Positions 50,627 to 63,371 are shown, counted from the first letter of the stretch. The stretch: 64,000 nucleotides of DNA from Halocatena salina (GCF_023115355.1 NZ_CP096023.1:62001-126000); one strand, 5' to 3'. Program-made: numbers and translations. The notes: generated from the sequence alone by a model not told the origin.

Positions 50627-50784
50627 GTTCCCTGACGCACTCGGCGTCAGCTGAAACGCGGGGAGCCATCACAGTGAATATTGTCACCGGTGCTTCAATC
50701 CTACGTGGGCCGCTGAAACCACAACACAATGTCAACAGACCAACTCAAGAGCCAGCTTCAATCCGACTAGCGTTCTGCTGTAAC
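50627..50784. repeat. Decayed CRISPR repeats resembling haloarchaeal type I-B
   Basis: Two to three degenerate repeat units with regular spacing. Unit 2 at 50692-50719 begins GCTTCAATCC and ends GCTGAAAC; unit 3 at 50755-50784 begins GCTTCAATCC and ends GCTGTAAC, keeping an internal GTTC. The 35 bases between are spacer-like. A weaker unit 1 (50627-50657) ends CTGAAAC, 34 bases before unit 2. The common haloarchaeal I-B repeat read on this strand starts GCTTCAATCCCAC and ends GTCTGAAAC. These differ from the functioning I-D repeats beginning at 50808. Confidence 0.55.
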
Positions 50785-50807: not shown

Positions 50808-52004
50808 GTTTCAATCCCGTGGTGGGTTTCTAGGGTGCTGTGACGCAGTTCTTGCAGTGAACGTCGATGTTCGACAACGGTTTCAATCCCGTGGGGAGTT
50901 TCTAGGGTACTGTGACCGAGGCGCATCGCCAACTCACTGGAGATACTATATGTTTCAATCCCGTGGTGGGTTTCTAGGGTACTGTGACCCCCGAACGCTC
51001 CACCGTTGGGGTGCTCGACGCGCCGTTTCAATCCCGTGGTGGGTTTCTAGGGTACTGTGACTGGGACATCATCGTCGTACCCGATGGTCGTCCCGACGTT
51101 TCAATCCCGTGGTGGGTTTCTAGGGTACTGTGACGGCACGCCGTACCGCCGTAACGCAGGTTGCCGAATCGTTTCAATCCCGTGGTGGGTTTCTAGGGTA
51201 CTGTGACTCACCGACCTTTTCACGGAAGCAACTGCGGTGATAGTTTCAATCCCGTGGTGGGTTTCTAGGGTACTGTGACATCGCTGGATCACAGAACCCA
51301 GCGACGAGATCGACGCGTTTCAATCCCGTGGTGGGTTTCTAGGGTACTGTGACGGTCGATGAGTTGGATGGGAATGTTGTCGCGCGGCGTTTCAATCCCG
51401 TGGTGGGTTTCTAGGGTACTGTGACACTCCGGACAGCTCCGGATCACCGTCACCGCCAATGTTTCAATCCCGTGGTGGGTTTCTAGGGTACTGTGACGCT
51501 TCCCAGGGCATTGCATCGTCGATACTCGTTCGTTCGTTTCAATCCCGTGGTGGGTTTCTAGGGTACTGTGACCCGCTTGTGCCAGGCTCGGCAGCACGAG
51601 CAAGCGCGTTTCAATCCCGTGGTGGGTTTCTAGGGTACTGTGACGGATGAGATTGAGGAGATCGGCGCGGCGTTCAATTTCAATCCCGTGGTGGGTTTCT
51701 AGGGTACTGTGACCGACGGCTTCGGAATGCATACAGTCATCGCAACTGAATTTCAATCCCGTGGTGGGTTTCTAGGGTACTGTGACCCGCATCGGTTGCG
51801 AGTGGCGAGAGTGTAACCAAATATTTCAATCCCGTGGTGGGTTTCTAGGGTACTGTGACGGTTGCTTCTGGCACTATTCATCACTCTCCTCGTCATATTT
51901 CAATCCCGTGGTGGGTTTCTAGGGTACTGTGACTGAGTAACGAGGATATTTGCGGCTCAACGGATACATTTCAATCCCGTGGTGGGTTTCTAGGGTACTG
52001 TGAC
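50808..52004 (-). CRISPR. CRISPR array 1, 17 repeats of 37 bases
   Basis: Seventeen repeats and 16 spacers of about 35-39 bases. Read in the transcribed direction (minus) the repeat begins GTCACAGTACCCTAGAAACC and ends CACCACGGGATTGAAAC. The leader is on the right, next to cas2. The leader-distal repeat at 50808 has GCACCC instead of GTACCC, and the second (50880) has two changes. The five leader-proximal repeats, at 51677, 51750, 51823, 51897 and 51968, all end in T instead of C, so new repeats were copied from a mutated leader-side repeat. Regular spacing and mostly perfect repeats indicate an active array. Confidence 0.97.
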
Positions 52005-52120
52005 AGGGGGTGAATATGCGTCGATAGAGCCTATAAGCGTTTCTCATTCAGTGAGCAACAGGGGCATCTTCGTGGACCCCCCCTGTACACAGATCTTATA
52101 AAGGTCCACGTAGCCTCTCT
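52005..52120 (-). promoter_or_regulatory. Leader of CRISPR array 1
   Basis: In the transcribed direction the 116 bases between cas2 and the first repeat contain CGTGGACC then a TATA-like TTTATAAG, TGTGTACAGGGGGG, and GGTCCACG. GTGGACC and GGTCCAC form an inverted repeat. CTTATAGG about 30 bases before the repeat is a second TATA candidate for the crRNA promoter. The same sequence, in the opposite orientation, leads array 2 at 61749-61919. Confidence 0.8.
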
Positions 52121-52393
52121 TCACAAAACGTTCGACTGTTCCTCAGGTGGTGCGACGCCAAGATCAGTCACACTATCGCAGCAGGCCTCACAGAGCCGAT
52201 AGAGGCGGATTCGATCCCCATCCGTTGGCTCGATCTGTGTGGTGAGTTCATCTTCCAGTTCCACCCGTTCCGTTTTTGAGACGTCCAGTTCGAAGACGCT
52301 GTACTGTCGCCATGCTCCGTAGCGCTCTAACGTTCGATACACCTGCCGACGATTCGCATCATCACTCACATCGTAGGTTACAACGAGTCTCAT
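52121..52393 (-). CDS. cas2: Cas2 adaptation endonuclease/scaffold
   Basis: A 90-residue ferredoxin-fold protein from MRLVVTYDVSDDANRRQVYR with the conserved Asp at the end of strand one (YDVSDD). RYGAWRQYSVFELDVSKTE is the usual second strand region. It dimerises and bridges Cas1 dimers in spacer integration. The ATG overlaps the cas1 stop (ATGA). It is the last gene of the operon, 116 bases from the first repeat of array 1. Confidence 0.95.
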   Translation of the reverse strand: MRLVVTYDVSDDANRRQVYRTLERYGAWRQYSVFELDVSKTERVELEDELTTQIEPTDGDRIRLYRLCEACCDSVTDLGVAPPEEQSNVL

Positions 52394-53385
52394 CGACACA
52401 CCGCCAGCGCGTGATACTCGTCTAACTCTCCTGTAATCGCCTTCCGGAGGAGAATCGCCTGCTGGCGGATCGCCTTTCGACGGCTCACCTGATACTCGAA
52501 ATAGGGGTGGGTCAGTGTCTCACTCATGTAATCATCGAACTTGTCGAGATACAACTGGAACGCATCGTCGGTGAGATGATTGTTCTCGCGGAACTGATCG
52601 TGAGTGATCGTCCGACGGTTGACCAACCGCAGCACGAACGCATCACAGAACAGCGGCCGAAACTCCTCTTGGAGATCCAATGCGAGGGAGGGTCGGCCCT
52701 GTCGATCGGCGTGAAGCACGCCGAGAAACGGATCGAGGTTGTAACATCGCAACGCACTCAGCACCTCGTTTTTCATCATCACGTACGTCAACGACAACAG
52801 CGAGTTGATGTGATCCTCTGGCGGCCGTTTGCTCCGTGTCTCGAACGTCCAGCCCTCGATGAGCGTCTCATCGAGCCGATTGAAATATTGCTCCGCAGCT
52901 CCGCCCTCAACACCACGAAGATCGTCCTTGCTCGTCACCGACTTCGTGCGCTCGCGCAGAGTCGCGAGCTCGGCGGTGCCGTGAATCCCTTTGCGGGCGA
53001 GCAGCGTTTGCGCGTTGCGGATCTTCGCACCGATCATCGATGAGGCGATGGCGAGTTCCATCTTGTCCGACAGGGCATACTGTGCTCGACGAACTTCGGC
53101 GATCGTGTTCCGTTCGGGGACGAAACTTCCGCGATATTTCCCGGTCTCGGTGAAGTAGTTGAGTACGATACCGTGCTCGTTGGCCCGCGCGACGAACGGT
53201 GTCGAGAAGTTCACCCCACCGAAGACGTTGATCGTGTCGACCTTCTCGGTTGGGAATGTGCCCAGCTCGCCTTGATCGCCATCAACGTCGTAAACGACGA
53301 TCTGCCCGCCGTCGGTCTGGACTTGAGCCCCTTGAGTTGTGACGTAGATAACCGAGTCGGTGAACATGCCGTCGCTCGCTTTCAT
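52390..53385 (-). CDS. cas1: Cas1 integrase
   Basis: A 331-residue CRISPR integrase from MKASDGMFTDSVIYVTTQGA. The catalytic metal ligands are visible: Glu in RGVEGGAAEQYF, His in FLGVLHADRQGRP and Asp or Glu in LALDLQEEFRPLF. The N-terminal beta domain (TDGGQIVVYDVDG, VNFSTPFVARANEHG) precedes them. It integrates new spacers with Cas2. The ATG overlaps the cas4 stop by four bases (ATGA); the Met at 53400 is inside cas4 and unlikely. Confidence 0.97.
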   Translation of the reverse strand: MKASDGMFTDSVIYVTTQGAQVQTDGGQIVVYDVDGDQGELGTFPTEKVDTINVFGGVNFSTPFVARANEHGIVLNYFTETGKYRGSFVPERNTIAEVRRAQYALSDKMELAIASSMIGAKIRNAQTLLARKGIHGTAELATLRERTKSVTSKDDLRGVEGGAAEQYFNRLDETLIEGWTFETRSKRPPEDHINSLLSLTYVMMKNEVLSALRCYNLDPFLGVLHADRQGRPSLALDLQEEFRPLFCDAFVLRLVNRRTITHDQFRENNHLTDDAFQLYLDKFDDYMSETLTHPYFEYQVSRRKAIRQQAILLRKAITGELDEYHALAVCR

Positions 53386-53972
53386 ACGTATTCCTCCCAC
53401 GCCACGTCTGGCATCCGATCAGGTTCGAGCGTCAGCGTCTCCTGGGGCATACAATAGTCCCGCGTCGAACAGGCATCACACTTACTCGGGTTATCGATGA
53501 TCGGCGGTACTGTGTCGGCACTCATCGATCGCATCATCTGGATCTGCGCTTCGACAGCATCACGATGGTCGTCAGTGATACGGATGTGCATTCGTTGATC
53601 GGTTTCGTACAGATAGATCGCACCCTCCCGAACCGGTTCATCGAGCTGCGCTTCGAGCAAGAGACAATAGCCAGCGAGCTGGAGTTCATCATTCCGATAA
53701 TACTGGCCGCTCTCAGCGCGCTTTCGCTCGATTGGAATCGGCTTTCCATCGAGTTCAAGCACGTCGATCCGGCCTTTCAAACCGAGCTCTTCGTCCTCAA
53801 GGTACATCTCATTAATCCATCCACCCCGGCGTGATTTGGCGTCGTGCATGGCTTTGCCGTCAATCCGCTCATAATTCCGACCTTGCGTATCGAAGAAGTG
53901 GAGATACCAGTACCGACGGGGACAGTACCGAAACTGGTTGAGATCGGAGACGTTGATGAGTTCTTCAGTCAT
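53382..53972 (-). CDS. cas4: Cas4 nuclease
   Basis: A 196-residue RecB-like nuclease with an iron-sulphur cluster. The first cysteine is in FRYCPRRYWYLHF, the last three in KCDACSTRDYCMPQ. The nuclease core has Asp in GRIDVLELDGKPIPIERKRA with the Glu and Lys of the ExK motif (IERK). Cas4 trims prespacers and selects PAM for Cas1-Cas2. The gene overlaps cas3 upstream and cas1 downstream through shared stop/start bases. Confidence 0.95.
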   Translation of the reverse strand: MTEELINVSDLNQFRYCPRRYWYLHFFDTQGRNYERIDGKAMHDAKSRRGGWINEMYLEDEELGLKGRIDVLELDGKPIPIERKRAESGQYYRNDELQLAGYCLLLEAQLDEPVREGAIYLYETDQRMHIRITDDHRDAVEAQIQMMRSMSADTVPPIIDNPSKCDACSTRDYCMPQETLTLEPDRMPDVAWEEYV

Positions 53973-55852
53973 ATGTTGCGCCGTTCGACGGTCACCGATG
54001 GGATTCCGTCTTGTTCGACGTAAGCCACGTATCGGTCGTATCGGACCTCAATCGGGAGAACAGCTTTCGGAAGGGGGAGAACACTAATGAATCGTCGCAA
54101 CAATCCCTCATCAACCCTGGTTTGTTCGAGATCAGCCATGTCGATCTCCGGATAGAGCCACTTGTTAAATTGGTCTTGCAACGTTGCTCTCGACCCACTG
54201 TAATCCTTAGGACGATTCTCGTATCCTGGTACCCGTCCCGTAATCGCTACAGGCTGGTCCGTATCGCGACGGCGAAGCCGTGGGGTGCCGTCGGATGTGA
54301 TCGATTCAATATCGTAATACCGTAGAGCGGTGAGCAAATCATATGATGTCAATGCCTTTCGATCGCCTCGCGGATATTCGATATCGATAGATAGGGACCG
54401 CCCTCGAAGGCCACGGAACGCCCCGAGACAATGGCGAGTGAACGTTAGCATCTTTCGCGTCGGACTGTTTCGCGTAATCGGCGATCCGAATTCCCCTGCC
54501 TTTTTCAGTGTTGTATCTAGCGAGCGAATAAAGCCCCTCCAGCGGTCGAATTCGGGAGCCGATTCGAAGTCTGCTCGTAACTCTTCACCCATCCATTCCG
54601 GAGCATCCATGCGATCCTGTAACGCGTATGCAGCTCGTAGGCCGATCAGACTCCGGAGTTGGGATATTTCACTGTCGGCAGTGGGACCATCTCCCACTCT
54701 GTTGTAGATCGAACTAACGAAGTCCCGATACGCCATAGTCTCTGGCCAGGATATCTCTTTGAGCCCATACACGTGTACTGTCGCTTCGTGTTCTCGCCCT
54801 GCTCGTCCGAAGCGCTGGAGAAATGAACTCGGTGATCGTGGCGTTTCCATGAACAGCGTCTGGATATCGTGATCGAGTCCGACCTCGCCCTTACTCGTCG
54901 TATTCAGTATGAAATACGACTCCGTTTCGAGGTCGACATCGGGGTCGTTCGTATCGAACCCATTATCTTTAACCGTGTGTTTGAACACTTCTGGCGCCAC
55001 GTCACTGAGTGTCTGGTGGAAGTCGTTGCTTGCGGCGACGCTGTTGAACACGAGTGCCACCTGTGGTGTTTGCAGGTCGTCCGCGCTAGTGATCAGCTCC
55101 CGCAATCGATCGATGACAGCGTCGATCTCCTCATCGATCGTTCGTGTCTCGTGGCGCTTGACGGTGACTGGCTGTCTGAATCGATCGCCAGCGTCGTCGA
55201 ATACGACATCAATATCTCGTACAGAGTGGGCGAGTTCATCCGTCACGAACGAGACGAACGATTCGTTGGGGGTCGCTGATGCCAGCACGATATCGGCCGT
55301 CGGTCGCCGATCTAAGAAAATGTGTATTTGTAGCAACAGCCCACTTGCTGCCAACGGATCATAGAAGTGAAACTCGTCATAGATCACCGCATCAAAGCGG
55401 TCGTAGAACTGCATCGCCTTCGTAGTGCCGTGATACGTGTTCTGGATGATCGATTGGAGGATATCGGGGTTCGTGACCACGATATCGTGTCCGGAGTAGC
55501 GGTCAGTGAACGAGAGTATCTCCTCGACACGATCATCCCCATGCCCAGAGAGTGTATTCCCGGTCAAAGGCGCGACCGAGACACCGTTCGCTTCGAATCG
55601 GGAGATCTGTTGGTTGAGGAGCGCATTTGTCGGATAGACGACGAGCGTGAGGTTGTTCTCCTCGATAATCGAGTGGAATGCAGCCGTTTTTCCGGCTCCA
55701 GTGGGGGCGCGAAGGACGGCGACAGGCGCAGCATTATCGGACTGCACCCACTCAGCCGTTCGATTTTGGAACGTTCTGGCGTGCGAAAATCCCAGTCGAG
55801 CGTAGACATCGTTGGGCGGTTCGGTCGCCAGTCCAGCGCCGTCGACGATCAT
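53969..55852 (-). CDS. cas3: Cas3' helicase of type I-D
   Basis: A 627-residue SF2 helicase with no HD nuclease domain. Walker A is APTGAGKTAA at 49-58, motif Ia VVYPTNALLNQ, DEFH box in AVIYDEFHFYD at 157-165, motif III SATPNES, then motif V TSKGEVGLDHD and motif VI SFLQRFGRAGRE. The DEFH box and lack of HD are features of type I-D Cas3', because the nuclease resides in Cas10d. It unwinds target DNA recruited by the Cascade-like complex. ATG overlaps the csc1 stop (ATGA). Confidence 0.92.
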   Translation of the reverse strand: MIVDGAGLATEPPNDVYARLGFSHARTFQNRTAEWVQSDNAAPVAVLRAPTGAGKTAAFHSIIEENNLTLVVYPTNALLNQQISRFEANGVSVAPLTGNTLSGHGDDRVEEILSFTDRYSGHDIVVTNPDILQSIIQNTYHGTTKAMQFYDRFDAVIYDEFHFYDPLAASGLLLQIHIFLDRRPTADIVLASATPNESFVSFVTDELAHSVRDIDVVFDDAGDRFRQPVTVKRHETRTIDEEIDAVIDRLRELITSADDLQTPQVALVFNSVAASNDFHQTLSDVAPEVFKHTVKDNGFDTNDPDVDLETESYFILNTTSKGEVGLDHDIQTLFMETPRSPSSFLQRFGRAGREHEATVHVYGLKEISWPETMAYRDFVSSIYNRVGDGPTADSEISQLRSLIGLRAAYALQDRMDAPEWMGEELRADFESAPEFDRWRGFIRSLDTTLKKAGEFGSPITRNSPTRKMLTFTRHCLGAFRGLRGRSLSIDIEYPRGDRKALTSYDLLTALRYYDIESITSDGTPRLRRRDTDQPVAITGRVPGYENRPKDYSGSRATLQDQFNKWLYPEIDMADLEQTRVDEGLLRRFISVLPLPKAVLPIEVRYDRYVAYVEQDGIPSVTVERRNI

Positions 55853-56553
55853 CCCAGTACCTCCGGAACGACGTGATCACGGACGAATCCCCGGTCAACA
55901 TCAACGAAGTGCTGGAGTCGGGGATCGTTTCCGCGACTGAACGACTCACTCCGTTCAAGCGTTTTACTGAGTAGCTTCGATGGGATGTCGTAGGCGTTTT
56001 CGAGCAAGAATTTGTTCAGGATGAACTGCTCTGGGTCTGCCTCTTCGGCTCGAAACTCACCGGTTTGGTTGATACCCATCCGAAACGATGGACGGTTGGG
56101 AAGCGGATCCTCACTCCAGACGGTAAACTCGAACGTCGATCCCGGAGAAAGACCGAGATAGTTGCGAATGGTTTGCCAGCCCGCACCGGCTGCTTCAAGG
56201 ATTTCCGGCACGGATTTTTTCCCATTCACACGATCCGCAATCTCTGGATCGTTCGTCGTGAAATGGCGCTCTGACCGGTAATCGCTGCTTCTGAACGTTC
56301 GTTCTCTGGCGTCGACGGTGAGGGGGCGCATATCCGTCACGAACACCGGCAGTTCCCGAAGGTGATCGTACGACGGAGACGTGGCCTCCGATCCCAAGAG
56401 TGCATACCGTTTTTCGAGACCAAAGTAACGATATCCCAGCGCGTGCATGAGTGCCGTCGCGGAGAGGATTGGTTGCGTTCGGATCGAACGCCCCTCTGCA
56501 CTTGAGTAGAACAGCGGAGCGTACAATGTAGCTCGATACGTCTGTTCAATCAT
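55849..56553 (-). CDS. csc1: Csc1 (Cas5 of type I-D)
   Basis: A 234-residue RAMP protein, MIEQTYRATLYAPLFYSSAE then RTQPILSATALMHALGYRYF and MRPLTVDARERTFRSSDYRS. It lacks the glycine-rich Cas5 start of type I-B systems (GPFAxFRRF) and fits Csc1, which caps the crRNA 5' handle in the I-D complex. It follows csc2 with an eight-base overlap. The open frame continues 44 codons upstream inside csc2 in another frame, so the start is 56553. Identification rests on family pattern and on operon position. Confidence 0.85.
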   Translation of the reverse strand: MIEQTYRATLYAPLFYSSAEGRSIRTQPILSATALMHALGYRYFGLEKRYALLGSEATSPSYDHLRELPVFVTDMRPLTVDARERTFRSSDYRSERHFTTNDPEIADRVNGKKSVPEILEAAGAGWQTIRNYLGLSPGSTFEFTVWSEDPLPNRPSFRMGINQTGEFRAEEADPEQFILNKFLLENAYDIPSKLLSKTLERSESFSRGNDPRLQHFVDVDRGFVRDHVVPEVLG

Positions 56554-57493
56554 CGTCGTCGAAGAAGGCTTTTGCAGCCCTTGTGAGCGAATCGAATTCC
56601 TCACGGAGTACCTCATCAGCGTCGGCAGCTTCTCGGGATGCAACTTCTTCGAGCCGATCGTACCAGTCGGGGAACGGTTCTGCACCCTCTAAGTCACCGT
56701 AGACCTCCCAATCAGAGCGGCGTGCATCGTCGATATACGCATTCAAGCTGGTTTCGATCTGCGTCTCAGTGTCAGCGTCGGTATACTCCATCAGGAGTTC
56801 GCCCGTTGACAGTGACGTGTCGTGTTCCCCAAGAATGAGTCCCACAATCGAGTTCCTCACGTTTCGCCCTGTCCGCGTCTCTTTCGCCCCGTACCGACCG
56901 GTGTTGAGGAGATTGTGAAGAACGTAGAGCAACATTGGACCAGTCCCCGCTTCGAGCGTGATGAAGTGGACGAGGGAGTTCCCTGGTTGGACTTTGACGA
57001 ATTCGAACAAGGCTTCCGACTGGTCGTTTTCCTCGTTGCGCATCGTCCCAGACTCATACACTGCATTCCGAGTCTCCTTATTCATCAGATCGTACTCGTC
57101 CGTGGTGTAGGTGTATCCCTCGATCACACGGGATTTGATGGCGAAGTCCTGATCACCAGTCCCTGCGAGACCGTACGTGATGGTCCCGACGTTGAGTGAC
57201 TCGTCAAGTGTCGCTGGCTCGTTGTACGTGTACTCTTCAGCCACGAGATCGTCATCGAGTGACCGCAGGAGATCTAACCCCGTCAGTCGCTCTTTGCTAG
57301 TGAACTTCTCGCCGTTGACCTGCGCGTGGAGTTTTCCATCGAATTTTTGCGTCTCCGAACGATTCGTCTTCGAGTTCCGGAACAGGGTTGGTTCGGTAAT
57401 CTCTCGCTTTACCACCAGCGTAATGGATGGTTTTTCGCAGCGGTAGATGTCGAACGAGTCAACAAGGCCGATGTCTGGGTATGTGAGTGTCAT
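56546..57493 (-). CDS. csc2: Csc2 (Cas7 of type I-D)
   Basis: A 315-residue backbone RAMP protein from MTLTYPDIGLVDSFDIYRCE with LVVKREITEPTLFRNSKTNR, GLAGTGDQDFAIKSRVIEGY, then an internal GTGPMLLYVLHNLLNTGRYG and RNVRNSIVGLILGEHDTSLS. These are the patterns of Csc2, which polymerises along the crRNA. An upstream Met at 57529 would overlap cas10d; the start at 57493 follows the cas10d stop by 16 bases. It is the fourth gene of the operon reading from cas6 to csc1. Confidence 0.87.
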   Translation of the reverse strand: MTLTYPDIGLVDSFDIYRCEKPSITLVVKREITEPTLFRNSKTNRSETQKFDGKLHAQVNGEKFTSKERLTGLDLLRSLDDDLVAEEYTYNEPATLDESLNVGTITYGLAGTGDQDFAIKSRVIEGYTYTTDEYDLMNKETRNAVYESGTMRNEENDQSEALFEFVKVQPGNSLVHFITLEAGTGPMLLYVLHNLLNTGRYGAKETRTGRNVRNSIVGLILGEHDTSLSTGELLMEYTDADTETQIETSLNAYIDDARRSDWEVYGDLEGAEPFPDWYDRLEEVASREAADADEVLREEFDSLTRAAKAFFDDDD

Positions 57494-57509
57494 TGGTGTC
57501 TGCTTGGTG

Positions 57510-59963
57510 TTAGTCGTCGGATGCGTCACTGTTAATTTCGGTGAGACACTGTTCGTAGGCGTAGCGATAGGCGTTGACTAGGGCATTCTCCCAGTCAGAG
57601 AGCTTTTTCAGCTCGTACAGGTCATTCGCACGGAGATACGACCGGATCGCTTCGACGAACGCTTGGGCTTCGTCGGTGGTTGCATATCCAGCGTAATCCT
57701 CTCGATCTGCGGCGTCGTACACCTGTGCTTCAACGTAAGAGAGCGTGGCGTCTTCGTCCAGGCCCTGACTTTTCGCGCTGAGGAACGCCTCGATCGCCTC
57801 TCTGAACACCTTCGTCTTCTTGTATTTGCTATCATACTGTACGCCGAATAAGTCGATGCCCCGCTGGGCGACTGTTTTCATATCCATGAATTGTTGAGTG
57901 TGGTACGATTCGATGTAGTCCCTGAGCTCGTCTCGCCATATTGCCCGCTCGTCGTTGGAGAGGGCAAAATCAGTCAACTCGTGGAACGTGTCTTGTTCCA
58001 GTTGGAGGTACGGATTGTTCATCCCGGCCTGCTGGCCGATAATGCTGATGAGTCGGCATAATTCGAGAGTGCGTTGGAGGTGTGACTCCTCGTAATTCTC
58101 CTCACGCTCGATGAACGCCGGCAGCGGCCCAAACCGGTCTGCCTCATCGAGATGCAACAGTTCCTGTTCTCGGATCGGATCTTCATCGAGGAACGCTGCA
58201 TTCGAGCTCGCAAACCGAGTGAATGGCCGACCCAATACGACCTTCATCCCGGTTGATTGTGCAGCCTCTAACAGTTGGCGGACGACGACCATCCGGTGGT
58301 TTTTGTCTGCCATCGACGGATGGCCGCCAAACCGGAAGGGTTGCACGTAGTACTGTGGTCCGACGAGACTAGTTGTTACCTCCGTGTCGCCGAGATCGGG
58401 GATCTGGCCCTGTTGGAGGCCAATTCGGTCACTTCGAAGGCGAATATCCCCGACGAAGTCATCGAAGTAATAGTACGCCACGTCGACCTTGGAATTGAGT
58501 CCCACCCCGTGGCGATCACACAGATCCGCCAAAAGTGCGTATTCTAAATTACACACTTCACAAATCTGTTTAAATTCACCATGGGGCTCAACTCGCCGAG
58601 AGAACTCGTACGACCGGTATACGGTCGAATGGCCCTTCTGGTAGCTGGTATCGGTCTGCCCACCGCACAGGAAACACATCTGCTCTTTTCCTGGAAGCTC
58701 AGCCACGGATAGAGGGTCGAAAAACCGATCAACAGCAGTACCGATCGCGTCGTTTTCCGGCTCGAGATCTGCATGGAGTTCGGGGCGAATTGCAGCTGCG
58801 AACTCCGCAAGGAACGATCGATGCTCATCGAAATGCCGAATCAGATAGGCGATGAAGTGAATTTTGACCTTCTGTGGCCCCTCTCGCTCACGAATTCTAT
58901 CGTAGGCCTCTTGGATAGCGTCGTCGTCGAACTCCGATTGGCCGTCGATATAGATCGCCTTCGCAAGGATCGGGAAGTACTCATCAAACGCTTCGGGAAT
59001 CCATTCGAACCCTTCAACGCCAGCGGTTCCATCGTGGAGGAGTTCACGAAACGTCTGTGCGATAATCTCCTCTTTGAGTGTTGGATCGAGGGCGAACTCA
59101 GCTAGAATATCGTAATCGAAGGAGTTCCAGTTCAGTTTACACGAGAACGAATAGCGGTCGCTTTCGATGAGCTGCTCGCTCAATCTCGCGTGTACGTGCT
59201 TTTGGATCGTATCCCGATCAATTGACTCGCCCAGATAGAGAATTGTCTCGTCAGTGCTTCCGACGACGACGCCGTATTCGTCTTCGCCAGCTTCACCCGA
59301 GATGACTTCCTTGGTGGCACCGAGTAGCTCGTCGTTAAGAATGGGCTGTTCGATCGCGTGACAGTCGAAGCGGTGGACAGTATCCGTGTCAAACTTCTTC
59401 TGTAGCGCCGAGTGTCCCGCTTTGACACCATCGCGGAGAATGGCAGACGCGATCTGATCACCTGCACGGCAGTATCGTTCGAGACCAACGAAATCGGTTG
59501 GGGTGCCCCGCGTCTCTCGGCTGTCTTCGTTCACCTCGGTATGTTGCACGAGATAGTGGAGATCGTCGCGATAGCCCGAGCCAAGGAAGTCCTCAATGCC
59601 GAAATCATCACCATTCGAGAAATAGGCCTCGAACGCTTCACCTGTGTTGCCGTCTGTTTCGACATCGTAGGCTTCACGGACGTATTTGTTGGTATCGTGC
59701 AGCGCCAGTGCTGCGGCGAGCACTTTGATATCTTCTTCGAGCGTTTCGATGTCGTGGCCATTACTGACTGCCGTGTACACGAACGTATTCACACCGATCG
59801 TGATTGCGTTGATAAGGTGGGCAGCCAATGACGTGGTCTCATCGGGTGCGGTTTTAGCGTCATACGCACCAGCGTGTTCGATGATGTTTTCGATCAGTGG
59901 TGATTCTATGATGTAGCGGTGAGCATACCGTGCTGCGCTTGCTGGTGAATCTGCGAAGTTCAT
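57510..59963 (-). CDS. cas10d: Cas10d (Csc3), large subunit with HD nuclease
   Basis: An 817-residue protein from MNFADSPASAARYAHRYIIE. The N-terminal HD nuclease has His49 in SLAAHLINA, the HD pair at 89-90 in ALALHDTNKY, His141 in LVQHTEV and Asp169 in CRAGDQIAS. A zinc-binding pair follows, CFLCGG at 430-433 and CEVC at 468-471. Downstream are long helical palm- and thumb-like regions without a GGDD cyclase motif. This is the I-D hallmark: the large subunit cuts DNA while Cas3' only unwinds. The open frame continues to 60098 but overlaps cas6. The ATG at 59963 overlaps the cas6 stop (ATGA). Confidence 0.93.
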   Translation of the reverse strand: MNFADSPASAARYAHRYIIESPLIENIIEHAGAYDAKTAPDETTSLAAHLINAITIGVNTFVYTAVSNGHDIETLEEDIKVLAAALALHDTNKYVREAYDVETDGNTGEAFEAYFSNGDDFGIEDFLGSGYRDDLHYLVQHTEVNEDSRETRGTPTDFVGLERYCRAGDQIASAILRDGVKAGHSALQKKFDTDTVHRFDCHAIEQPILNDELLGATKEVISGEAGEDEYGVVVGSTDETILYLGESIDRDTIQKHVHARLSEQLIESDRYSFSCKLNWNSFDYDILAEFALDPTLKEEIIAQTFRELLHDGTAGVEGFEWIPEAFDEYFPILAKAIYIDGQSEFDDDAIQEAYDRIREREGPQKVKIHFIAYLIRHFDEHRSFLAEFAAAIRPELHADLEPENDAIGTAVDRFFDPLSVAELPGKEQMCFLCGGQTDTSYQKGHSTVYRSYEFSRRVEPHGEFKQICEVCNLEYALLADLCDRHGVGLNSKVDVAYYYFDDFVGDIRLRSDRIGLQQGQIPDLGDTEVTTSLVGPQYYVQPFRFGGHPSMADKNHRMVVVRQLLEAAQSTGMKVVLGRPFTRFASSNAAFLDEDPIREQELLHLDEADRFGPLPAFIEREENYEESHLQRTLELCRLISIIGQQAGMNNPYLQLEQDTFHELTDFALSNDERAIWRDELRDYIESYHTQQFMDMKTVAQRGIDLFGVQYDSKYKKTKVFREAIEAFLSAKSQGLDEDATLSYVEAQVYDAADREDYAGYATTDEAQAFVEAIRSYLRANDLYELKKLSDWENALVNAYRYAYEQCLTEINSDASDD

Positions 59964-60808
59964 TGACCAACCTCCACAGCGACAGCACCACACCCACGCG
60001 CGACGAAGCCACCGACGCCCCCGAATTCGCCAAACAGCGCGAGCGCTGTCACCGCCGTCCGAACCGCCTCGCTCGCGCCCTTGAACTTGTAGGTGCACTG
60101 CCCGGAGAAGCCCTGACGTTGGATGGGCCGACCGTCTTCGCCACGGTTCACGAGGACGCTGTGGGAGTCGAGCGACCGGAAGTCGGGCTTCTCGATGAGG
60201 TTTTCCTCGAAGTCCGCTCGGGTCAGGCCCAGTTCCAGTTCGTCGGCCTGTTCGGTCGGCACCGTCTTGTTCCAGCGACGCAGCAGCGAGCGGAACGTGC
60301 TCGCTCGATGAGGGAACATCGTGGTGATCTCAGCCGTTTCCCGAATACACGTCGGCGTCCGGAACGTCAGTTCGAGCTCGACATTCGGCGGAGCCTGCTC
60401 AACCAGTTCAGCTGCATCGGCTAGCAGTTCCTCGTGCGTCGCGTTCATGCTCGCGAAGTTCCGCACGTGGAAGCTGCCGCGATCAAGGTCCAACGAGTCA
60501 CCACTGAACACGAACGCGTCCGCGAGCGCTTCGAACACGTCTTGATCACGCGGATCGGTGACGCCGAGATCAAGCGTGTAGGTCTGGTCCGTGATCGTCC
60601 GTTGGTGATGCTTTCGCTCACTGTTCGCGAACGGTCCCACCAACCCACTGTTGTGGAGACTCCCGAGGGGGGCGTCGTGGAGCCGCTCGCTCACTCCCGC
60701 GGAAACGTCTCCGAGCGCCGAAAGCAGCGCTCCGTACACCTGATAGCCGTTCCATGTCGGCACAGCGAACGCACCCTCTGGCTCAAGTGTCAATGTAATC
60801 TGTCGCAT
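59960..60808 (-). CDS. cas6: Cas6 crRNA endoribonuclease
   Basis: A 282-residue RAMP endonuclease from MRQITLTLEPEGAFAVPTWN. It has two ferredoxin-like halves and the C-terminal glycine-rich loop GEFGGVGGFVARGCGAV characteristic of Cas6. His residues near the N-terminus (RLHDAPLGSLHNSG, ERKHHQRT) are candidates for the general base. It cleaves pre-crRNA in the repeat to leave an eight-base handle, here ending ATTGAAAC. First gene of the cas operon. Confidence 0.95.
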   Translation of the reverse strand: MRQITLTLEPEGAFAVPTWNGYQVYGALLSALGDVSAGVSERLHDAPLGSLHNSGLVGPFANSERKHHQRTITDQTYTLDLGVTDPRDQDVFEALADAFVFSGDSLDLDRGSFHVRNFASMNATHEELLADAAELVEQAPPNVELELTFRTPTCIRETAEITTMFPHRASTFRSLLRRWNKTVPTEQADELELGLTRADFEENLIEKPDFRSLDSHSVLVNRGEDGRPIQRQGFSGQCTYKFKGASEAVRTAVTALALFGEFGGVGGFVARGCGAVAVEVGQ

Positions 60809-61103
60809 GGTGTCACCTGAAGAGTCGGATTATTTCCGACGGGAATCGATCGACTGATGGCAGGAATTACGGCGCTATCCATTGCTGGAACCCTCCCTGA
60901 CAGCTCGGGCTGATAATCTCTGCCTGCTAGCCACAACTGTTATCCATCGGTGTTTCAATTTGTATCACACATCTCTGCATGGAGTATCACCCACTAAATC
61001 CTTTCGATATTCTGAGACGATCCAATGTATCTGAGATTCACGTCTTTGATCCCATTCTAATAGGACGGTGTTGTTTTATCGCTGCAGTTCGAGGAGCATG
61101 ACA
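60809..61103. promoter_or_regulatory. Divergent promoter region of cas operon and csa3
   Basis: The 295-base gap between cas6 (minus) and csa3 (plus) must carry both promoters. AT-rich candidates lie at about 60953-60970 (TTTCAATTTGTATCA), near 61000 and around 61068. I do not see the leader palindrome GTGGACC/GGTCCAC here, so any Csa3 operator would be a different sequence. Confidence 0.5.
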
Positions 61104-61748
61104 ATGCGAACATATCTTTCTCCGATCGGCTACAATAGCACGAGTGTGACTCGGACGGTGTTGAGTCATGGAGTAGATAGGGATGATCAGATCGTTCTGA
61201 TTCGGCCGACAGCGGAGACGGATACCAGTCGTGCAGACGAGGCGATCAACGATGTGCAGCGGCTGCTCGGGGAAGTCCAGCCGGAGATTGCGGTGACAAC
61301 GGAACGGATTCCACACGACGATTTTGAAACGGCTGTGGTCCGGTGTCAGGAGTTACTCCAGGCAGCTGGGGGCGCTGTGACGGTTAATCTGGGGGGTGGG
61401 GCGCGTGATATTCTGCTGCCGCTGATGACAGCTGTCCTCACAGAGATCCAGCAGATCGATAGCGTTCTCATTTTCAGCGATGTTGATGGCAAGGTCCGTG
61501 AATGGGAGCTGCCGACCCTCAGCACTACCGTGTCCGACACTGTGTATGAGACTCTTACCGCCATCGCCGAGGTCGACGGAGAGATCTCGATACCGCAACT
61601 CACGGAGACCACTGGCCGTCCAAAGAGCACGGTGGCCCGGCATGTTGATCTTCTCGAACAGAACGATGCTGTCGCCGGGCGGCGCGAGGGGAAAACGAAG
61701 CGTGTGTCACTGACCCTGACAGGGCGACTGGTGGTGAACGGTGAGTGA
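61104..61748 (+). CDS. csa3: Csa3-family CARF-HTH regulator
   Basis: A 214-residue transcription factor from MRTYLSPIGYNSTSVTRTVL; MTMRT two codons upstream is an alternative. The N-terminal CARF domain has the Rossmann-like VLIRPTAETDTSRADEA and the ligand-loop motif VTVNLGGGARDILLPLMTAV. The C-terminal winged helix has EISIPQLTETTGRPKSTVAR with HVDLLEQNDAVAGRREGKTK. Csa3 proteins sense cyclic oligoadenylate or other signals and regulate cas genes and adaptation. It lies between the cas operon, from which it diverges, and array 2, so both could be controlled by it. Confidence 0.93.
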   Translation: MRTYLSPIGYNSTSVTRTVLSHGVDRDDQIVLIRPTAETDTSRADEAINDVQRLLGEVQPEIAVTTERIPHDDFETAVVRCQELLQAAGGAVTVNLGGGARDILLPLMTAVLTEIQQIDSVLIFSDVDGKVREWELPTLSTTVSDTVYETLTAIAEVDGEISIPQLTETTGRPKSTVARHVDLLEQNDAVAGRREGKTKRVSLTLTGRLVVNGE

Positions 61749-61919
61749 GGGGGTGAGTTGGGAGACGAACGTCCCGACTCCACTCTCGGAGTCACCCCCG
61801 GGAGGAGAAGCTACGTGGACCTTTATAAGGTCTGTGTACAGGGGGGGTCCACGAAGACGGGGCGATTGCTCACGGAATGAGAAACGTTTATACGCTCTAT
61901 CGACGCATATTCACCCCCT
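61749..61919 (+). promoter_or_regulatory. Leader of CRISPR array 2
   Basis: From about 61809 it matches the array 1 leader in reverse orientation with few changes: CTACGTGGACC, TATA-like TTTATAAG at 61822-61829, TGTGTACAGGGGGG and GGTCCACGAAGA. GTGGACC/GGTCCAC is an inverted repeat in both leaders. A second TATA-like TTTATA at 61887-61892 is 28 bases before the first repeat and would start transcription at its edge. The region between 61749 and 61808 differs and lies directly after the csa3 stop. Confidence 0.8.
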
Positions 61920-63045
61920 GTCACAGTACCCTAGAAACCCAATACGGGATTGAAACAAGGCTCCAAAGAGGCGACCTCGAAGACTGATTACGTCACAGTA
62001 CCCTAGAAACCCAATACGGGATTGAAACTCGATTGCTGTCACCTGTCCATCCGCCTCTCGATGAGTCACAGTACCCTAGAAACCCAATACGGGATTGAAA
62101 CGAATTCAAAGCCACCGACGACGAGCGCCGTGTGGCGATGTCACAGTACCCTAGAAACCCAATACGGGATTGAAACGATGCGTGCCTGGGAGTCCTCACT
62201 CGAAGTCATTGGGTCACAGTACCCTAGAAACCCAATACGGGATTGAAACAGCGTTCCGTTCTCGATGAGGTCCCACAACGTTTGTCACAGTACCCTAGAA
62301 ACCCAATACGGGATTGAAACACCGATTAAGCGGAGGTCCGAGCGCAGGAGGATGTGGTCACAGTACCCTAGAAACCCAATACGGGATTGAAACCGTAGCA
62401 GAAGACTTATCCTCCGATAGTCATATCGCAGTCACAGTACCCTAGAAACCCAATACGGGATTGAAACAAAGGTCGGTCGTGACGGCCTATACCCCGGATT
62501 TCGTCACAGTACCCTAGAAACCCAATACGGGATTGAAACCTGGCTCGGGACGTAGTTCGGCGGGAAGTTAGCGACAGTCACAGTACCCTAGAAACCCAAT
62601 ACGGGATTGAAACTTTCTTGTCCGTCTCGGTCCATTCGCTACGGTCGTCACAGTACCCTAGAAACCCAATACGGGATTGAAACAACCAGAGATCCTCTTT
62701 GAACCCGTCGTCAGCCCGTCACAGTACCCTAGAAACCCAATACGGGATTGAAACGCCAGCGAGTCGAGATCAATGCACTTCCACCGTCCGTCACAGTACC
62801 CTAGAAACCCAATACGGGATTGAAACTGAACGAGGTCTTCCATTGATCTGAGAGCCCGTCTCGTCACAGTACCCTAGAAACCCAATACGGGATTGAAACG
62901 TCGATCCACCACCATGCCGCGATCGCGCCGGAGAGTCACAGTACCCTAGAAACCCAATACGGGATTGAAACCCTGCTGTACCCGCGGCAACACATGAGGC
63001 GTACAAAGGTCACAGCACCCTAGAAACCCACTACGGAATTGAAAC
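61920..63045 (+). CRISPR. CRISPR array 2, 16 repeats of 37 bases
   Basis: Sixteen repeats and 15 spacers of about 35-38 bases. The repeat begins GTCACAGTACCCTAGAAACC and ends CAATACGGGATTGAAAC; it differs from array 1 at two positions (CAAT versus CACC). The leader is on the left. The last repeat (63009-63045) is degenerate: GTCACAGCACCC, CACTACGG and GAATTG. Its GCACCC matches the leader-distal repeat of array 1, and its CACT is intermediate between the arrays, so both arrays probably descend from one ancestral repeat. Spacers share no obvious sequence with each other. Confidence 0.97.
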
Positions 63046-63143
63046 GATATCAGTGTCGATGTACACGGGAGTTCCGGCTCGAACTCGGCAGCGTCCATCA
63101 CAGCACATTACAGACGAATCTTCGCCGGGTTGAAGCACGTTCT

Positions 63144-63371
63144 TTATGGGCTATCGGTAATATGGAGGTCCCCATCGACGGCATACAGATACCCTTTCGA
63201 GAGCAACCGATCGAGGACGCTGTGGGCAACGGACGGCTCACAGTCGAGCTCTGCGAGTGCGGTGACGGCCACCGCTCGTGAAAAGCTGTCTGCAACCGGC
63301 TCGTAGTCTTCATACAGTCGCTCAAGCGCGGCTTGTTCGGTGCGGCCAAGCGGCGTCTGCTGGTTCCGCAT
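63144..63371 (-). CDS. Small winged-helix-like hypothetical protein
   Basis: A 75-residue protein from MRNQQTPLGRTEQAALERLY with AVTALAELDCEPSVAHSVLD and RLLSKGYLYAVDGDLHITDS. The pattern of three helices and a beta wing (GYLYAVDGDLHI) is that of a minimal winged helix. It may be a DNA-binding regulator. The frame extends 20 codons upstream with a hydrophobic stretch of doubtful reality. It lies downstream of array 2 and converges on it. Confidence 0.55.
   Translation of the reverse strand: MRNQQTPLGRTEQAALERLYEDYEPVADSFSRAVAVTALAELDCEPSVAHSVLDRLLSKGYLYAVDGDLHITDSP

Follow-up and report, generated by a model that had tools for sequence, protein, structure and literature searches.

Positions 50808-63045 of the window (the 64,000-nucleotide stretch analyzed, C5:62001-126000, on a 172-kb contig of a 4.0-Mb haloarchaeal genome) hold a complete type I-D CRISPR-Cas locus that appears to be working, in which csa3 and cas6-cas10d-csc2-csc1-cas3'-cas4-cas1-cas2 lie between two arrays with inward-facing leaders. 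We favor, with a probability of roughly 0.85, a haloarchaeal I-D system that would insert spacers at two leaders, process with Cas6, assemble a Cascade and destroy DNA through the Cas10d HD domain and Cas3' under Csa3 regulation, its adaptation proteins and Cas6 probably being shared with orphan and type III-A arrays. The features of the locus are as follows, in window coordinates.

50808..52004, minus strand (crRNA strand): array A1, 17 repeats, GTCACAGTACCCTAGAAACCCACCACGGGATTGAAAC
52005..52120, minus strand: leader of A1, with the conserved inverted repeat at 52071-52110 and ACCCCCT at the junction
52121..52393, minus strand: cas2 (Cas2d), profile 1.9e-35
52390..53385, minus strand: cas1 (Cas1d), profile 2e-140
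53382..53972, minus strand: cas4 (Cas4d), profile 2.9e-106
53969..55852, minus strand: cas3' (Cas3d), helicase without an HD domain, profile 1.4e-294; GAGKT, DEFH and QRFGRAGR
55849..56553, minus strand: csc1 (Cas5d), profile 1.2e-131
56546..57493, minus strand: csc2 (Cas7d), profile 1.5e-182; match to Synechocystis Cas7d (7sba), 1.1e-10
57510..59963, minus strand: cas10d, 817 aa, profile E=0; HD motif at residue 89, no GGDD
57510..57887, minus strand: predicted internal ORF for Cas11d, 125 aa
59960..60808, minus strand: cas6 (Cas6d), profile 4.9e-121
60824..60840, no strand: 17-bp palindrome GTCGGAAATAATCCGAC directly upstream of cas6, present in a congener's locus and absent from other relatives
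61104..61748, plus strand: csa3 (CARF-winged HTH regulator), pointing away from the operon, CARF/Csa3 profile 2.8e-80
61809..61919, plus strand: leader of A2, with the conserved inverted repeat at 61814-61853
61920..63045, plus strand: array A2, 16 repeats, GTCACAGTACCCTAGAAACCCAATACGGGATTGAAAC

All nine ORFs were open and intact, as an earlier note on this DNA had claimed, and all nine proteins matched type I-D or Csa3 profiles. Gene starts were refined by profile alignment and homologues (cas10d ATG 59963, csc2 ATG 57493, csc1 ATG 56553, cas2 ATG 52393, csa3 ATG about 61104). After these corrections the described chain of stop/start overlaps was recovered, with 4-8 nt shared at each junction of the operon and a 16-nt gap between cas10d and csc2 as the sole exception. 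The subtype call also stood up, every effector subunit being assigned to an I-D model in the profile search. None of the effector proteins matched type I-B Cas8b, Cas7b or Cas5b in that search, which excludes type I-B; best matches to these families were the outcome the note had named as refuting. Cas1, Cas2, Cas4 and Cas6 all matched I-D-branch profiles. Among NCBIfam models, Csc2 (TIGR03157), cas3_cyano (TIGR03158) and cas_HTH scored above cut-off, Csc1 (TIGR03159) and Cas1d fell below their subtype cut-offs, and no family was found for Cas10d or Cas6. Cas10d was recognized by the PADLOC profile PDLC02022 but not detected by the cyanobacterial Csc3/Cas10d profile PDLC00921 at E<=1e-3; it represents a branch that the cyanobacterial model misses, yet PADLOC covers.

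The HD motif ALALHDTNK was kept in Cas10d homologues, and Cas3' carried its Walker A, DEFH and QRFGRAGR motifs. An AlphaFold model of Cas10d, although poor (pLDDT 56), ranked two solved Cas10d structures first of 350,542 PDB chains, which we take as weak support only; phmmer gave no match to solved Cas10d, sequence identity being too low. The candidate Cas11d start is an in-frame ATG at cas10d codon 693, invariant in 14/14 homologues and lacking a Shine-Dalgarno-like sequence, with a predicted product of 125 residues. Internal Cas11 starts are known in type I-D (PMC10212523), and one is reported for a haloarchaeal I-B system (PMC11899642).

In the favored reading, Cas4-Cas1-Cas2 would put new spacers into both inward-facing leaders, each of which would drive its own array, and Cas6 would cleave 3' of the repeat hairpin to leave the ATTGAAAC handle. 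The crRNA would join Cas10d, Csc2, Csc1 and the Cas11d made from the internal cas10d start in a Cascade that binds DNA at a probable GTN PAM. Bound DNA would then be destroyed by the Cas10d HD domain and Cas3', with Csa3 acting as regulator.

The two arrays have 37-nt repeats and 32-38-nt spacers, 31 of which are distinct. Repeats of A1 and A2 differ at two positions, both in the hairpin loop. The repeat stem (19-21/27-29) held its pairing in 100% of cells, one pair doing so through compensatory changes. Five leader-proximal A1 repeats (51677-52004) end ..GAAAT, the final base of the handle having changed from C to T; the change looks as though it had spread by copying of the first repeat. The locus could instead be a decaying or silent remnant, given that distal repeats are mutated in both arrays and that cas4 and the greater part of cas1 are gone from the corresponding locus of congener G338. 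We consider this very improbable: the nine genes are intact, catalytic motifs are present where checked, leader-proximal repeats are uniform, and the single change shared by the five A1 repeats is expected if new repeats copy the first one.

Two degenerate type I-B repeats (50692-50719 and 50755-50784) lie beyond the distal end of A1. They match this genome's I-B repeats at 26/30 and about 23/29 positions, with alignment scores of 22 and 15 where shuffled sequences reached at most 11 and 13, and are by sequence the relic of an I-B array. On C4 (161965-162001, L012), a lone I-D repeat is followed by a degenerate repeat and flank resembling the distal end of A2 (window 63009-63290), which suggests a duplicated array end. 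Two long I-B arrays with cas4-cas1 occupy C5 136400-138258 and 146971-151016 (L013, L039), on the window's own contig, and a cas1 fragment is found at C5:169336. A further cas1, carrying an in-frame TAG, sits beside a 44-repeat I-B array (C3 124935-125675; L036, L041).

Comparison of all 31 spacers with phage and plasmid records gave nothing convincing, the arrays of five relatives gave only short chance matches to phages, and three exact scans of viral contigs returned no protospacer match. Spacer A2s3 matched three sites in two haloarchaeal genomes at 84%, each with 5' GTC. A GTN PAM is known for type I-D (PMC10212523), and these flanks, from one good spacer, are consistent with it. Flanks for relatives' spacers were mixed, comprising GTG and GTC but also CTG, TCG and AGG; one spacer in that analysis matched a gene found in many genomes.

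The locus proved to be an ordinary member of its group. In the sample of 391 haloarchaeal genomes, cas10d occurred in 18 (about 5%). All 14 haloarchaeal loci fetched had the same operon order with divergent csa3, which was kept even in the most distant of them (G129), with Cas10d 35-38% identical. The operon is also carried by seven named species, including Halostella pelagica, Natrinema hispanicum, Halorussus halobius and Halococcus thailandensis; in loci such as these Cas10d was 58-69% identical, and repeats and leaders were species-specific. In G171, one of the 14, cas10d is interrupted by a stop codon, and the Natrialba hulunbeirensis contig stops within this gene. Arrays on both sides with inward leaders were detected in 11/14 relatives, the majority of the loci whose flanks were read. 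Any rarity implied by the earlier note was not borne out: the operon, csa3 and two inward arrays form the usual haloarchaeal I-D layout, and paired arrays are the rule. Since the layout is common to relatives, the paired-array architecture is probably ancestral in haloarchaeal I-D. Nor is this a clean single-system model, because the genome also holds type I-B and III-A systems.

Cyanobacterial I-D systems (Synechocystis PCC6803, Microcystis) have the same subunits and adaptation genes, an HD on Cas10d, a separate Cas3' and likewise about 35-nt spacers, and their GTN-type PAM is plausible here (PMC10212523). They differ in gene order and, reportedly, in having a WYL regulator where Csa3 stands here (PMC10212523). 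Saccharolobus/Sulfolobus I-D is likewise archaeal with Csa3 (PMC10212523), and its Cas10d structures were the top fold matches; here, in contrast, two arrays enclose one operon and the leaders carry a haloarchaeal inverted repeat.

The inward leaders are nearly identical, as first noted: alignment gave 90% identity over 104 nt for the leaders proper, and the inverted pair 51969-52122/61802-61955 was 91% complementary over 154 nt. Few haloarchaeal relatives are alike in this respect. Left and right leaders averaged 0.72 identity within genomes versus 0.56 across genomes (maximum 68%), a difference reached in 0/5000 permutations. Within-genome identity was highest here (0.90) and in L045 (0.94), L054 (0.84) and L055 (0.96), and other pairs such as L042/L043 clustered by side. 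Relatives have both arrays too, so the similarity is most simply read as an exchange of sequence, in some lineages, from one inverted leader to the other. For the repeats, concerted evolution was rejected, since wherever a genome had both arrays its left and right repeats were different. One locus (L044, G322) has a complete I-D operon and leader-like inverted repeats on both sides, with no adjoining array detected.

Within these leaders lies a 40-bp inverted repeat, CRTSGACC-N24-GGTCSAYG, with arm positions sometimes mismatched. It was found at the same register in the leaders of the compared I-D loci, distant G129 excepted, and ends 66 nt before the first repeat wherever present. Three I-B leaders of this genome, and I-B leaders in other genomes, carry the same element at a spacing of 55-57 nt. 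A motif scan was positive in 58/391 genomes, some matches lying away from arrays, and a reversed control pattern had no match among the genomes listed. The two spacings are about one helical turn apart, which suggests a factor that has to bind on the helical face shared with the integration site. Cyanobacterial I-D leaders, too, have conserved motifs, which increase spacer acquisition; in that case a bending factor of unknown identity is suspected (PMC10212523). In the literature searched, mostly outside subscription journals, no description of the haloarchaeal element was found.

The element also connects the locus to a complete type III-A operon on main chromosome C1 (L142 168-7458), which encodes Csm1-5, with GGDD retained in Csm1, and a CARF-HEPN Csx1. 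Directly downstream of the Csm operon are two mini-arrays with another 37-nt repeat, I-D-type leaders, 66-nt spacing and an ACCCCCT junction, and the III-A repeats end in the 8-nt I-D handle. Such mini-arrays, some beside a III-A operon, lie at C1 1968958-1982044, 2148751-2149975 and 2291300-2293212 (L086, L087, L088, L144). Their genus-restricted repeat has at least 32 copies on C1, one site consisting of a leader and a single repeat, and an orphan four-repeat array on C3 has an I-D-type leader outside the main locus. Because the orphan array and the III-A mini-arrays have leader register, junction motif and handle in common with the I-D locus, the I-D Cas1, Cas2, Cas4 and Cas6 probably serve both in trans. 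Cooperation in adaptation between CRISPR types is known elsewhere (PMC8092290).

Alternatively, the I-D locus may be normal but self-contained, the III-A mini-arrays resembling it by common descent and being served by other machinery (for example I-B Cas6 and Cas1) or no longer expanding. This is a real possibility, though less likely than not. Outside the handle the III-A repeats have a sequence of their own (CTTTCAACTGTGCC...), the mini-arrays are no longer than 1-11 repeats and include many degenerate copies, and other cas1 genes are present elsewhere in the genome. The only Cas6 detected by PF10040 was the I-D one, but this profile misses the Haloferax volcanii control, and processing of the III-A arrays might therefore fall to a separate I-B Cas6. 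Against self-containment, I-B arrays show a 55-57-nt leader spacing and repeats ending in GTTGAAG, whereas III-A leaders share the 66-nt spacing, ACCCCCT and handle of type I-D, and no cas1 match in the genome was found on the III-A contig. We keep service in trans as the preferred reading. Its fullest form is tentative: the I-D locus would be an adaptation and maturation hub whose Cas1-Cas2-Cas4 and Cas6 supply both the I-D arrays and the dispersed III-A mini-arrays through one leader element. A leader factor common to haloarchaeal CRISPR types would recognize that element, which would be held in helical phase with the integration site (66 versus about 56 nt, one turn), and III-A cyclic oligoadenylate would feed back on Csa3.

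Csa3 has both a CARF and a winged HTH domain, scored 75.0 bits against TIGR01884 (cut-off 60.2) and matched Csa3_N; its modest structural model (pLDDT 62) had Csa3 (2wte) and Csa3-cA4 (6wxq) as top fold matches. We asked whether the leader inverted repeat is its operator, with Csa3 controlling both arrays and perhaps answering cyclic oligoadenylate from the III-A Cas10. In all I-D loci compared csa3 has the leader as its neighbor, Csa3a of Sulfolobus binds both leaders and cA4 (PMC8699464, PMC9456107), and the GGDD of Csm1 is in place. The proposal nevertheless appears unlikely, as I-B leaders carry the inverted repeat too, even in genomes where no Csa3 passes the TIGR01884 cut-off (e.g. G319, G140, G089; 16/116 pass), and G183 has I-D-type leaders with no Csa3 above it. 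On the ground of these I-B leaders, Csa3 was down-weighted as obligate binder of the element. A Csa3-like global regulator, crr, has been described (PMC11434293), and a protein of this kind could be the binder. The CAPPa palindrome (TCCCN8GGGA), conserved in Sulfolobales CRISPR leaders and proposed as the Csa3a operator (PMC8699464), is likewise a conserved leader palindrome; the haloarchaeal element differs in sequence, has a much wider gap (24 nt) and extends to I-B leaders in genomes that have no clear Csa3. Since Saccharolobus Csa3 binds cA4 (PMC8699464), III-A feedback on the I-D Csa3 is possible by analogy. The palindrome GTCGGAAATAATCCGAC at the cas6 promoter was rejected as a conserved operator because it is present only at this locus and in the congener.

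In congener G338, sequence matching window 51969-52539 (A1 leader, cas2 and the end of cas1) was 95% identical and that matching 59970-62176 (cas6-csa3-leader-array) was 90% identical. Between these blocks the I-D effector is a different, deeply divergent one that belongs to the canonical Cas10d branch (1107 aa); cas4 is missing there and cas1 is reduced to 52 residues. Canonical-type effectors were found in the same frame in other haloarchaea (L097, L100), there with cas4-cas1-cas2 intact. That I-D effector genes are shuffled while the adaptation genes and cas6 stay conserved has been noted in general terms (PMC10212523), and G338 is, by sequence comparison, a fine-scale example.

The locus itself is a good but ordinary subtype member; the leader element and the III-A link are what merit experiments. 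A natural effector swap in closely related species separates the effector from adaptation and regulation. To this are added a defined 40-bp leader element whose distance from the integration site depends on subtype and a genome in which type III-A arrays appear dependent on type I-D genes. Less expectedly, the leader element is common to the III-A arrays, so that the memory of two immune systems may be run from a single locus.
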